DNA of 37,888 bases. Origin: Phycisphaerae bacterium. GTDB lineage: Bacteria; Planctomycetota; Phycisphaerae; SM23-33. Shown in pieces: positions 1 to 37,573 of this stretch; position 1 is the first letter of the stretch; each line of letters starts with the position of its first letter. Made by a program: the position numbers and the translations under genes. The notes under the pieces are model-generated. The model saw only the letters and a list, made by a program, of their open reading frames with translations. It was not told where the DNA came from and did no database searches. The DNA is taken from assembly GCA_021108335.1 (NCBI GenBank), contig JAIORC010000230.1:1-37888 (forward strand), in the 5' to 3' direction.

Positions 1-306
1 AAACCCCGCGTTTTTTGCGGGGTAGCCATGAAAGATCGATTCACAATTTCTACGCCATATCTTCCTCAAAACCACTCAACATACCATCCGCCGTCGTGTA
101 TCTATTTTTCCCCCAGGGGGCCACCCGATATTCTTTTCTGGGCCATTTTTTTCATGGCTACCCGCCCCCTTCCCTGCGTGGTGGCCTTCCCAGGCCACCA
201 CGGCACGAGCTACAAACCTGCGCCACCAGCGTTAGCGTCGCAGCGGGAACGAAGCGACACCCACTCGGGACGAAAAACACATGGTCCCCTGGGGACCATG
301 CCACCC
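1..306. repeat. Mosaic intergenic palindromic repeat cluster A
   Basis: Contains CCCCGC-gTTTTTT-GCGGGG (4-22) followed by TAGCCATGAAAGATCGATTCACAATTTCT; CCCCCAGGGGG+CCACCC (110-126); CGTGGTGGCC-TTCCCA-GGCCACCACG (177-202); ATGGTCCCC-T-GGGGACCAT+gCCACCC (281-306). Bases 1-51 match 37429-37479 with one mismatch. Confidence 0.85.
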
Positions 307-3824: not shown

Positions 3825-4051
3825 GGGTGCCATGCTTCTGCTTGCAGAAGCATGCGGTAAGAAAACGCATTGGGTGCCGTGGCGGGAGCGAAGCGACAGC
3901 CACGAAAGATAGATACTCGATGGCAGTTTTTTAGACATTAAGGCTTTTTAGAATCCGCGTGGGTGCAAGCACCCACCCTACAAGTGTTGGGTGGCCCCTT
4001 GGGGGATGAATCCGTAACAAACATGCTTCTGCAAGCAGAAGCATGGCACCC
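3825..4051. repeat. Mosaic intergenic repeat cluster B, bounded by perfect 30-bp inverted repeats
   Basis: 3825-3854 GGGTGCCATGCTTCTGCTTGCAGAAGCATG is the exact reverse complement of 4022-4051 CATGCTTCTGCAAGCAGAAGCATGGCACCC. Inside: GTGGC...GCCAC (3879-3903), TTTTTTAGACATT (3927-3939), GTGGGTGCAAGCACCCAC (3959-3976), CCCCTTGGGG (3995-4004). Confidence 0.9.
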
Positions 4052-6286: not shown

Positions 6287-6424
6287 CGGGTGGCATGGAA
6301 ACGCCGCATTTTTTTGCGGGGTAGCTATGTCCGTCCATACATAATTTCTACGCGATCCCTCCCCCAGGGGGCCACCCAAAGCGTTTTCTTACCCCATGCT
6401 TCTGCGAGCAGAAGCATGGCACCC
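6287..6424. repeat. Mosaic intergenic repeat cluster C
   Basis: GGGTGGCATGGAAACGCCGCATTTTTTTGCGGGGTAGCTATG, then ...ATAATTTCTACGC, CCCCCAGGGGGCCACCC (6361-6377), GCGTTTTCTTACC, CATGCTTCTGCGAGCAGAAGCATG+GCACCC (6395-6424). Lies between convergent redoxin and feoB. Confidence 0.85.
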
Positions 6425-9635: not shown

Positions 9636-9860
9636 GCGCGGCGGCCTGGGAAGGCCGCCGCGCTAGGGTTAATAGTTTGGGTGACTAGAATTAATAGTTT
9701 GGGTGGCATGGCTTGCTTGCAAGCCATGTGTTTTTGCAGTCTCCCACGATATCGGGTGCCGTGGTGGGAGCGAAGCGACAGCCACGAAAGATAAACATAC
9801 AATGGTGGTTTTTTAGACATTAGACATTATAGTCATTAGTCATTTAGCCCCCCAGGGGGC
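9636..9860. repeat. Mosaic intergenic repeat cluster D
   Basis: GCGCGGCGGCC-TGGGAA-GGCCGCCGCGC (9636-9663); direct repeat TTAATAGTTTGGGTG (9669-9683, 9691-9705); CATGGCTTGCTTGCAAGCCATG (9707-9728); CTCCCACGATATCGGGTG (9741-9758); GTGG..CCAC then CACGAAAGATA..TTTTTTAGACATTAGACATT; GCCCCCCAGGGGGC (9847-9860). Confidence 0.88.
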
Positions 9861-15072: not shown

Positions 15073-16272
15073 ATGTTGAGAACGATAATATTAATTTGTG
15101 TTTGCGCCTTGTTTTCAGGGTTCATTTATAGTGTCGGAAGTGCTGACGACGTCAAGAAAGCATCTGCGGAAGCCAAATCCCAAAAACCCAAATATCTTTA
15201 TGTGATAAAGGAAACAGACAAGAAAGGCCGTGATAACTATGGTTATATTGACAAAACCGGTAAAGTAGTAATTACGCCGCAATTCAAACAGGCAGGATAT
15301 TTCAGTGAAGGTCTTGCATGCGTCTGTCCGCGGAATATTTTTGGGTCGCCGTGGGGTTACATCGATACTAGCGGCAAGATGGTCATCAAACCGCAATTCT
15401 GGTACGCAGAGGAGTTCAGCGAAGGTTTTGCTGAGGTAACAACAAAAACAAACAAGAAACTGCTAAGTGGTTTTATAGACAAGAAGGGCAAATGGCTGGT
15501 AAAGCCTCAATTCGAGGGCGCGGGGCAATTTAAGGAGGGTTTGGCAAAAATAGCGGTAAAGAAAAACGGAAAGAAACTAATAGGCTTCATTAACACAAGA
15601 GGGAAAATTGTAATTCAGCCCAAGTTTACATACTCCAGCCTAGTATCCTATTTTTCGGATGGAGTTACTCCTGTAGTGATCGGGGAGGAATTCGGGAACC
15701 AATGGGGGGCTATCAACAAGAAAGGCCAGTGGGTAGTAAAACCGAAATTTGATTTTTTTCTGTCCAATTTCAAAAACGGTATGGCGATAGCAAATATTGA
15801 CGGGATGAAAGGCCTTATAGACACCAAGGGCCATTGGGTGATTAAGCCAAAATATTGGTTTATATTATGGTTTTGCGACGGCCTTGCCCCCGTCGGGTTG
15901 GACAAGGAAGACGAATGGGGTTTTATTGACAAGAAGGGCAAATTGGTAATCAAAATCCACGGTGACATAAACCCCCGCTGTTTTTCCGAGGGTCTGGCTT
16001 CGGTTAGCGGAACGGTTATCAACAAGAAGACCAATCTGGTTTACAAGGGTGTTGGCTATATTGATACAAAGGGCAAGTGGATAGTCAAGCCCAGGTATTG
16101 GCGGGCATATGACTTTAAAAATGGGCTGGCCAGAGTGTGGGGATATGGGGGTAAAACGGCATATATCAACAAGAAGGGGAAGTATGTATGGAAAGAAAAA
16201 GGCTGGAGAGAACCAAGGCCATATCGAATGCGAAAGAAGAAAAAGAAAACCCCGGGAATCCCCAAAAAATAA
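15073..16272 (+). CDS. WG-repeat protein, copy 1
   Basis: Repeated YGYIDKTGKVVITPQF..A..FSEGLA units (WG/KWG family); signal peptide MLRTIILICVCALFSGFIYSVGSA; Lys-rich C terminus. Confidence 0.92.
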   Translation: MLRTIILICVCALFSGFIYSVGSADDVKKASAEAKSQKPKYLYVIKETDKKGRDNYGYIDKTGKVVITPQFKQAGYFSEGLACVCPRNIFGSPWGYIDTSGKMVIKPQFWYAEEFSEGFAEVTTKTNKKLLSGFIDKKGKWLVKPQFEGAGQFKEGLAKIAVKKNGKKLIGFINTRGKIVIQPKFTYSSLVSYFSDGVTPVVIGEEFGNQWGAINKKGQWVVKPKFDFFLSNFKNGMAIANIDGMKGLIDTKGHWVIKPKYWFILWFCDGLAPVGLDKEDEWGFIDKKGKLVIKIHGDINPRCFSEGLASVSGTVINKKTNLVYKGVGYIDTKGKWIVKPRYWRAYDFKNGLARVWGYGGKTAYINKKGKYVWKEKGWREPRPYRMRKKKKKTPGIPKK

Positions 16273-16312
16273 GTGCGTAGGTTGGATGTCGGCATTGATC
16301 AGGAGTTGAAAT

Positions 16313-17503
16313 ATGTTGAGAACGATAATCTTAATTTGTGTTTGTGCCTTGTTTTCAGGGTTCATTTATAGCATCGGAAATGCTGATGACGTCAAAAAAG
16401 CATCTGCGGAAGCCAAATTCCAAAAGTCCAAGCATCGCTTTCTCATAAAGGAGGCAGACGAGAAAGGATTTGAAAGATATGGTTATATAGACGAAACCGG
16501 AAAGGTTGTAATCAAACCGCAATTCAAGTATGCGGCACATTTTAGTGAGGGGCTTGCAAGTGTTTCTTCGCGAAGCGCCCTTGGAAGTGGGGGGGGGTAC
16601 ATAGATACTAATGGCAAGATGGTCATCAAGCCAGAAGCCAGGCAGGCATGGGAATTCAGCGAAGGTTTCGCTCCCGTGCAAGTTACTGAGGGACGCCATG
16701 GCAAGACGAAGTGGGGTTTTATTGACAAGAAAGGTAAATGGCAGGTAAAACCTCAATTCAAGGACGCGGGGCCATTTAAGGAGGGCTTGGCAAGAATAGG
16801 TGTAAAGAAAAACGGAAAGATGCTAATAGGTTTCATTAACACAAAAGGGGAAATTGTGGTTCCACCCAAGTTTACAGATACCTGCTTGGTAACCTATTTT
16901 TCAGACGGAGTAACACCGGTTGCTGTCGGCGAAAAATGGGGTTTTATCAACAAAAAGGGTCAGTGGGTAGTAAAACCAAAATTTGATTTTCTATCCAATT
17001 TTAAAAACGGTATGGCGATAGCAGCCATTGGTGGAAAACAAGGCCTTATAGATACTAAAGGCCGCTGGGTGATTAAACCAAAATATTGGTTTATATTATG
17101 GTTTTGTGATGGCCTTGCCCCTGTCGGGTTGGACAAGGAAGACGAATGGGGTTTTATTGACAAGAAGGGCAAATTGGTAATCAAAATCCACGGTGACATA
17201 AACCCCCGCTGTTTTTCCGAGGGTCTGGCTTCGGTTAGCGGAACGGTTATCAACAAGAAGACCAATCTGGTTTATAAGGGTGTTGGCTATATTGATACAA
17301 AAGGCAAATGGATAGTCAAGCCCAAGTATTGGCGGGCATATGACTTTAAAAATGGACTGGCCAGAGTTTGGGGATATGGGGGTAAAACGGCATACATCAA
17401 CAAGAAGGGCGAGTATGTATGGAAAGAAAAAGGCTGGAGAGAACCGAGGCCATATCGGATGCGAAAGAAGAAAAAGAAAACCCCGGGAAAACTCCAAAAG
17501 TAA
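16313..17503 (+). CDS. WG-repeat protein, copy 2 (tandem paralogue)
   Basis: Same leader GGCATTGATCAGGAGTTGAAATATGTTGAGAACGATAAT and near-identical 3' portion as copy 1. Confidence 0.92.
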   Translation: MLRTIILICVCALFSGFIYSIGNADDVKKASAEAKFQKSKHRFLIKEADEKGFERYGYIDETGKVVIKPQFKYAAHFSEGLASVSSRSALGSGGGYIDTNGKMVIKPEARQAWEFSEGFAPVQVTEGRHGKTKWGFIDKKGKWQVKPQFKDAGPFKEGLARIGVKKNGKMLIGFINTKGEIVVPPKFTDTCLVTYFSDGVTPVAVGEKWGFINKKGQWVVKPKFDFLSNFKNGMAIAAIGGKQGLIDTKGRWVIKPKYWFILWFCDGLAPVGLDKEDEWGFIDKKGKLVIKIHGDINPRCFSEGLASVSGTVINKKTNLVYKGVGYIDTKGKWIVKPKYWRAYDFKNGLARVWGYGGKTAYINKKGEYVWKEKGWREPRPYRMRKKKKKTPGKLQK

Positions 17504-31633: not shown

Positions 31634-31691
31634 CGGTGGCCCCTTGGAAGATAGAATCCGTAACAAGCCCCCTGGGGGGCACTCGGCCGGG
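31634..31691. repeat. Mosaic intergenic repeat cluster F
   Basis: GGTGGCCCCTTGGAAGATAGAATCCGTAACAA followed by GCCCCCTGGGGGGC (31667-31680); shares its left part with cluster B but has a different core. Confidence 0.8.
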
Positions 31692-35498: not shown

Positions 35499-35599
35499 GT
35501 GTAGGGTGGGTGCTTGCACCCACGCGGTTTTTGCGGCGGCCAGGGAAGGCCGCCACGCAGGAATGAAAAATTCATTTCTGCGTCGCTCTTCATGGCGAC
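35499..35599. repeat. Mosaic intergenic repeat cluster G
   Basis: GTGGGTGCTTGCACCCAC (35506-35523), GGCGGCC-AGGGAA-GGCCGCC (35535-35554), GCAGGAATGAA-AAA-TTCATTTCTGC (35557-35581), GTCGC..GCGAC (35583-35599). Confidence 0.82.
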
Positions 35600-37294: not shown

Positions 37295-37573
37295 GGGTGC
37301 CATGCTTCTGCTTGCAGAAGCATGTTTGTTACGGATTCCCTCATAACCATCGTCGTTGGGTGGCATGGTCCCCAGGGGACCATGGTTGTTCGATACTGGG
37401 CAATTTCCCACGATGTCGGGTGGCATGGAAACCCCGCGGTTTTTGCGGGGTAGCCATGAAAGATCGATTCACAATTTCTGTGTCTATCTTTCATGGCCAT
37501 CGGCTTCGCCGCTGACCATGCCACCCGATATCGTGGGAGGCAGAACACGGCTTGCAAGCAAGCCGTGCCACCC
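37295..37573. repeat. Mosaic intergenic repeat cluster H
   Basis: GGGTGCCATGCTTCTGCTTGCAGAAGCATG (37295-37324); CATGGTCCCC-A-GGGGACCATG (37364-37384); CCCACGATGTCGGGTGGCATGGAAACCCCGCGGTTTTTGCGGGGTAGCCATGAAAGATCG (37407-37466); CATGG..CCATG+CCACCCGATATCGTGGG (37492-37537); CACGGCTTGC-AA-GCAAGCCGTG+CCACCC (37546-37573). Confidence 0.9.

Follow-up and report, generated by a model that had tools for sequence, protein, structure and literature searches.

Identity of the palindrome clusters

The window analysed here, one whole contig of 37,888 nucleotides (C10) from a 3.78-Mb planctomycete draft genome (409 contigs, 91% complete), carries clusters of short palindromes, and it raises the question of what these palindromes are and how different hairpin cores come to alternate between conserved sequences. 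All of the clusters described in an earlier sequence-only reading of this DNA, and almost every core type listed there, could be located in the window. Palindromes with arms of at least 8 nucleotides number 17, against 5.7 (maximum 11) in 30 first-order resamples, and feet of the form GGGTGSCR number 20, against 8.4 (maximum 16) in 100 shuffles. An Rfam scan of the window returned a tRNA as its sole match.

The palindromes extend well beyond this contig. Across the whole 3.78 Mb, core A (CATGCTTCTGC..GCAGAAGCATG) has 174 copies, while its reversed control pattern has none, and core B has 103 exact headed (foot-bearing) copies in the genome. Most further counts come from a main sample of 1.46 Mb of genome stretches, in which cores A, B, C, I1, I2, K and L together reach 295 copies; another 0.32 Mb was later kept as a held-out set (total about 1.78 Mb). 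The sequence-only reading had left it to a genome scan to decide whether the palindromes are confined to the window, and they are genome-wide. The other reading that it had set out, namely that every copy is a fragment of one longer known insertion sequence, is not borne out by the copies themselves: cores and spacers combine in many ways, the cores belong to different RAYTs, and no single longer element with a transposase accounts for them. We conclude that the clusters are REP elements of genome-wide families, comprising hundreds of small hairpins.

The elements of the window were assigned from their sequence unless stated otherwise. The first cluster consists of an I1 hairpin that has lost its foot at the contig start (1..30, + strand; it matches footed I1 copies elsewhere), a J hairpin with foot (110..126, - strand), which according to context comparison sits in a slot held by I2 in other copies, an E hairpin, CGTGGTGGCC..GGCCACCACG (177..202), and a C hairpin with foot (280..306, - strand). 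Next come an A hairpin (3825..3854, + strand) and a K hairpin (3872..3904, + strand), each with the foot GGGTGC, a D hairpin, GTGGGTGC..GCACCCAC, with a classical GTAG foot (3959..3982, - strand), a J hairpin with the foot GGGTGG (3989..4005, + strand), which from sequence and spacer contexts is in a slot held by L in other copies, and a second A hairpin with foot (4022..4051, - strand). Footed I1 (6288..6329, + strand, diverged), J (6361..6377, - strand) and A (6395..6424, - strand) hairpins form the third cluster, and the fourth holds an E hairpin, GCGGCGGCC..GGCCGCCGC (9637..9663), a B hairpin with the foot GGGTGG (9701..9728, + strand) and a K hairpin with foot (9754..9786, + strand). At 31634..31691, comparison with spacer family S1 indicates an apparent decayed pair, J - AATCCGTAACAAGC spacer - J, which overlaps a predicted ORF end. 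A D hairpin with a GTAG foot (35501..35523, + strand) and an E hairpin (35533..35558) follow, and the last cluster contains footed A (37295..37324, + strand) and C (37358..37384, + strand) hairpins, an intact inverted pair of 109 bp composed of I1, spacer and I2 with the feet outward (37418..37526), and a B hairpin with foot (37546..37573, - strand). A core swap is thus visible within the window, where the I1 element at 1-126 ends in J and that at 37418-37526 is an intact I1-I2.

Apart from the palindromes, two adjoining genes of the window (15073-17503) are tandem duplicates with stretches 82-93% identical; they contain internal GxIDKKGKWVVKPQF-like repeats that by eye resemble WG repeats.

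One foot and many cores

Genome-wide, about ten discrete cores can be distinguished, and most of them sit behind one common unpaired foot, GGGTG[C/G]. When the sequences behind GGGTG[CG]C[AG] in the 1.46 Mb were counted without bias, the tally was about 60 L, 58 A, 49 K, about 40 B, 28 I2, about 27 each of I1 and C, and 20 G. Families without the GGGTG foot also occur: D and F, which have the classical GTAG foot, E, which has no recognised foot, and H, which accompanies F. If the strict GT[AG]G rule is applied, the foot is GTGG in B, C, I1, I2, L and G and GTAG in D and F, whereas the GTGC feet of A and K fall outside the classical form. Single-strand DNA folding left GGGTG[C/G] unpaired in 8 of the 8 cores tested; by the same method, K and J did not fold better than shuffled sequences did. 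Both the TGGTCCCC core and the GGCTTGC core extend to CATGG..CCATG. The sequence-only reading had described GGGTG(G)C and G(C)CACCC as left and right caps. The motif is real, but it is a fixed unpaired 5' foot rather than a two-sided cap, G(C)CACCC being the same foot read on the other strand. Neither is it a linker, as the linkers proper are conserved spacers behind the hairpins.

These units are, like REPs in general, short hairpins of high copy number and mainly extragenic. The earlier statement that all copies are intergenic is nearly accurate: 92.5% lie outside predicted genes, and 22 of the 295 GGGTG units lie within them, though 80% of the 1.46 Mb is predicted coding by the simple hexamer gene caller made for this analysis. 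About ten G-type hairpins, CACAGGTT..AACCTGTG, were seen inside predicted genes of the 1.46 Mb (for example C4:38894-40462, C8:21970-23328 and C9:12017-13372), where they read as peptides such as GTGLQPVP, AQVTNLC and HRLQTCAT; they are reminiscent of the Rickettsia palindromic elements in coding frames. Some copies of I1 or I2, on contigs C6, C22 and others, are directly followed by an extra mini-hairpin, CCTGCCCCCAGGGGG, and related CCCC..GGGG inserts occur in other hairpin loops of the sample contigs. The CCTGCCCCCAGGGGG insert may be another small mobile hairpin.

RAYT genes flanked by matching hairpins

The window had been described as having no transposase to account for the palindromes, and indeed no RAYT is encoded in it; RAYT genes are found on other contigs. 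Several Y1 proteins were found in the genome, and in at least five cases REPs lie on the flanks of a RAYT (TnpA_REP) gene. The RAYT on contig C207 is flanked by A hairpins on both sides, that on C13 by K hairpins, that on C362 by I1 and I2, one at each end, that on C170 by F (GTAG foot) and that on C213 by G. The C13 gene was found by profile search after the other four, all of which (C207, C362, C170 and C213) pass the NCBIfam REP_Tyr_transpos cut-off. The HxH motif and the Tyr are invariant. For the C207 protein, a structure prediction (mean pLDDT 83) gave as the best fold match 4er8, the E. coli TnpA_REP bound to a REP hairpin, followed by IS200/IS605 transposases. The HUH and single-Tyr motifs, the family profile and the TnpA_REP fold that characterise RAYTs are thus all present. 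Three related RAYTs (C207, C13 and C362) bear GGGTG-footed REPs with a different core in each (A, K and I1/I2, respectively). Each of the RAYTs of this GGGTG clade is single-copy in the genome, that is, of low copy number and not IS-like. For B, C, L, J, D and E, no flanked RAYT was found in the 91%-complete draft.

Two further loci were observed among these genes. The G-REP-bounded RAYT (L067; G000:C213, 2998-5898, - strand) is in frame with a leucyl-tRNA synthetase editing domain in one open frame of 966 aa, as if the RAYT had inserted inside leuS; the contig ends there, with upstream leuS outside it. A Y1 transposase-like protein (L065; G000:C89, 11290-12453, - strand) has a C-terminal DnaA-type helix-turn-helix, and a second ORF on that contig (12680-13093) repeats the C-terminal part of the protein. 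No REP was found adjoining L065.

The foot is conserved across a clade of RAYTs

Homologues of the RAYT of this genome come almost entirely from Planctomycetota records, which makes a planctomycete host very probable. In a first set, composed of homologues from 80 named contigs and the genome's own RAYTs (84 loci) and analysed with no motif assumed, a matching inverted hairpin is present on both flanks of 48 loci, against a mean of 3.9 with shuffled flanks. A set of 100 loci, mostly from Planctomycetota, was obtained by adding 20 same-family loci and removing doubtful rows. The same GTGS-footed sequence occurs on both flanks of 80 of these 100 loci, against a shuffled mean of 5.7 (maximum 12), with the qualification that a few loci are the same gene entered twice (L104 and L232 look identical), so that n=100 slightly overstates independence. 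Inverted copies therefore flank the cognate RAYT for A, K, I1/I2, F and G in this genome and at 80% of loci across the clade. Among these RAYT loci, 40 distinct cores can be recognised. The last base of the foot, C or G, tracks the RAYT tree, which was built without OWN_G (wrong frame) and other long or doubtful rows, with 10 changes compared with 24.5 in shuffles. A relative, G015, encodes five RAYTs with five different cores, all behind GGGTGCC.

Since the foot is constant and the core variable across RAYT loci, the supposed cap corresponds to the REP foot that one clade of RAYTs has in common, and the core types correspond to the REP types of paralogous RAYTs that are still present or have been lost. 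A RAYT-like TnpA had been put forward as a hypothesis for the spread of the palindromes, and it is borne out to the extent that RAYTs are present in the genome, are flanked by matching cores, and keep this association across the phylum. The combination of a near-constant foot with a highly variable core in one RAYT clade offers a clean test of whether a RAYT reads the foot, the base stem or the apex.

Hairpins are replaced within constant contexts

The description of the clusters as swappable cores joined by conserved linkers proved literally correct, as cores are replaced in place within contexts that are constant on both sides. In the context TTCCCACGATRTC|GGGTG-core-AAAGATCGATTCACAATTTC the core is I1 in 24 cases and J in 8, in GGCCCAGAAAAAAATRTC|GGGTG-core-AAAGATAGATACACGAYGG it is I2 in 9, J in 4 and K in 1, and in the GGTAARAAAACGCRTY context it is I2 in 5, K in 3 and J in 1. 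In the held-out contigs, J again occupies the slot of I1 and K that of I2. The spacer ATGGAGTCCGTAACAARC lies between the members of L-A, J-A and J-J pairs, and J at this spacer retains the foot base of whichever position it occupies, whereas K as a replacement brings its own foot base along. Replacement can also be seen within the hairpin: the base GGGTGGCATGG...CCATG, that is, the CATGG/CCATG stem, bears five main alternative apices, and rare chimeras occur on it (two combine an L base with an I1 apex, and in one the left arm is of B and the right arm of C), as does one inverted I2 apex.

Neighbouring hairpins form outward inverted pairs in 43 of 111 cases, with compact pairs of 75-89 bp and 106-170 bp. 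The outward pairs are mostly heterotypic (for example I1-L 9, I1-I2 8, A-L 7, C-K 5 and B-K 4). Two close inverted REPs with their feet outward are the arrangement of a REPIN, and mosaics of REPs with conserved linkers that of a BIME; both are found here. In G015, pairs mostly join like or partner cores, and a hybrid of two RAYTs' cores is also present. A two-class pairing of {A,B,C,I1} with {K,L,I2}, noticed post hoc (39 of 51, P 5e-5), was 9 of 13 (P 0.24) in the held-out contigs; as it was unconfirmed there, we claim no pairing rule.

A scan of viral contigs for the I1 context gave no match. An exact A-type REP with foot was observed on one 10-kb IMG/VR contig (L285, position 1803-1832), which may derive from a phage that infects a related host, or else be bacterial and misclassified.

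Probable origin of the mosaics and of core exchange

We interpret the clusters, with a probability of roughly 0.85, as BIME- or REPIN-like mosaics of co-resident REP families, with a RAYT of its own for each active family and the hairpin as a replaceable module. Each unit consists of a hairpin preceded by an unpaired foot, which is GGGTG[C/G] or, in D and F, GTAG. Each active family would be multiplied, now or formerly, by a RAYT of its own, an HUH/Y1 single-strand nuclease; inverted copies of the REP that the nuclease presumably cleaves and multiplies lie on both sides of its gene. Descent from one clade would account for the common foot of the related RAYTs, which differ in the hairpin core. 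Whole cores, or the apex alone above the CATGG/CCATG base, have been exchanged between families inside constant flanks, most likely during single-strand processing. Two routes through single-stranded intermediates can be envisaged: the RAYT might cut and rejoin the strand at the foot of the hairpin, or the polymerase might switch template between REPs with a common foot and base. The J cases, in which the foot base stays, and the chimeric and inverted apices lean towards template switching; in the K cases the core takes its foot base along, in line with cut-and-rejoin.

The strongest alternative is that the host's own processes, be it replication slippage, template switching or gene conversion, account for all core exchange, with RAYTs acting only in amplification. 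We put this at slightly under even odds. Foot and base supply 7-11 nt of common sequence at which such processes could act, and the chimeric hairpins, the inverted apex and the retention of the position's foot base when J replaces a core are all in keeping with it. However, several replacements, such as J beside AAAGAT, share little sequence on the exit side, and K carries its own foot base. A more far-reaching proposal, which we regard as less likely than not, is that the hairpins are exchangeable cassettes: the RAYT would read mainly the foot, cut at the base and rejoin another hairpin. REP populations would in this way gain new cores, and the specificity of the RAYT would then follow. If this were true, cassette exchange would be a mechanism for REP-type switching.

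It is improbable that the hairpins are instead kept as transcription terminators or mRNA stabilisers, with their diversity due to drift and the RAYT linkage secondary. Such a role would agree with the placement of the REPs, whose density is maximal between convergent genes and minimal between divergent ones, and with TGTTTTT after B and C. It would also agree with the orientation of L-type REPs, which between tandem genes of the 1.46 Mb are co-oriented in 26 cases and opposed in 6 (P 0.0005, uncorrected for twelve families). Most families, however, show no orientation bias relative to genes and several have no T run, and identical cores at hundreds of sites, as well as cores common to RAYT flanks, would be left unexplained. 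Least probable by our estimate, and very unlikely, is that the mosaics are a short-read assembly artefact, since, although breaks and false joins at repeats are possible in a genome of 409 contigs, the exchanged slots are short enough to fit in one read, one and the same replacement is found on many contigs (J occurs 8 times in the I1 context), the outer flanks are mostly different (46 of 1711 slot pairs share more), and the related genome also has a hybrid element.

The reading as mosaics with replaceable hairpins bears on how a RAYT lineage changes the hairpin that it multiplies, a question for which this genome offers many REPs that agree in context but differ in core or apex. Such in-place replacements of the body show how new repeat types can arise.

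Comparison with known REP systems

Multiple REP families per genome, REPtrons, orphan REPs left behind by RAYT loss and mosaic BIMEs have all been described (PMC3686654, PMC6006769, PMC3733652, PMC2817692), the first of these in PMC3686654 and PMC6006769. The judgement that the palindromes are more complex than BIMEs therefore needs qualification, as BIMEs are mosaic by definition and multi-family genomes are known, but the number of cores on one foot and base stem is unusual. Neither the GGGTG-footed planctomycete RAYT clade nor core replacement in constant context was described, and no biochemistry on this clade was reported, in the main texts of the openly accessible papers searched.

With REPs or REPtrons and their cognate RAYTs (Nunvar 2010, PMC2817692; Quentin 2018, PMC6006769; Corneloup 2021, PMC8266576), the elements described here share the foot and hairpin, the high copy number, the intergenic location, the inverted copies around an HUH/Y1 gene, one REP type per RAYT and several types per genome. 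They differ in that the foot is extended to GGGTG[C/G] and near-constant across a planctomycete RAYT clade, in having GTGC feet outside GT[AG]G, and in the very many cores per foot. Because Quentin et al. based their survey on GT[AG]G feet (PMC6006769), it would overlook the GTGC type seen in A and K. TnpA_REP is known to cut and rejoin single-stranded REPs, and the foot helps choose the cleavage site (PMC8266576); for a Marinomonas REP, altering the last foot base was shown to alter the cleavage dinucleotide (PMC8266576).

The BIMEs and REPINs of E. coli and Pseudomonas (Bertels and Rainey 2011, PMC3116915) likewise have inverted pairs, mosaics, conserved linkers and heterodimers, but here the ends come from unrelated hairpin types and hairpins are replaced inside a constant context. 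Tagged palindromes (GTAG- and CGTC-tagged repeats, TIRtrons) have been reported from Planctomycetes, and many tyrosine transposase genes with flanking repeats from Rhodopirellula baltica (Di Nocera 2013, PMC3733652); unlike here, neither the GGGTG tag nor core exchange was found in the text searched.

In the orthoswitch at orthologous RAYTs (Nunvar 2013, PMC3686654), as in the present genome, related RAYTs have different REPs, and orphan classes arise after RAYT loss or switch. There the switch was deduced from the comparison of strains and its authors could only speculate about the mechanism, whereas the present genome shows the replacement within individual elements. The in-place core exchange resembles BIME mosaicism and, as far as sequence comparison can indicate, provides evidence bearing on the orthoswitch of REP types.
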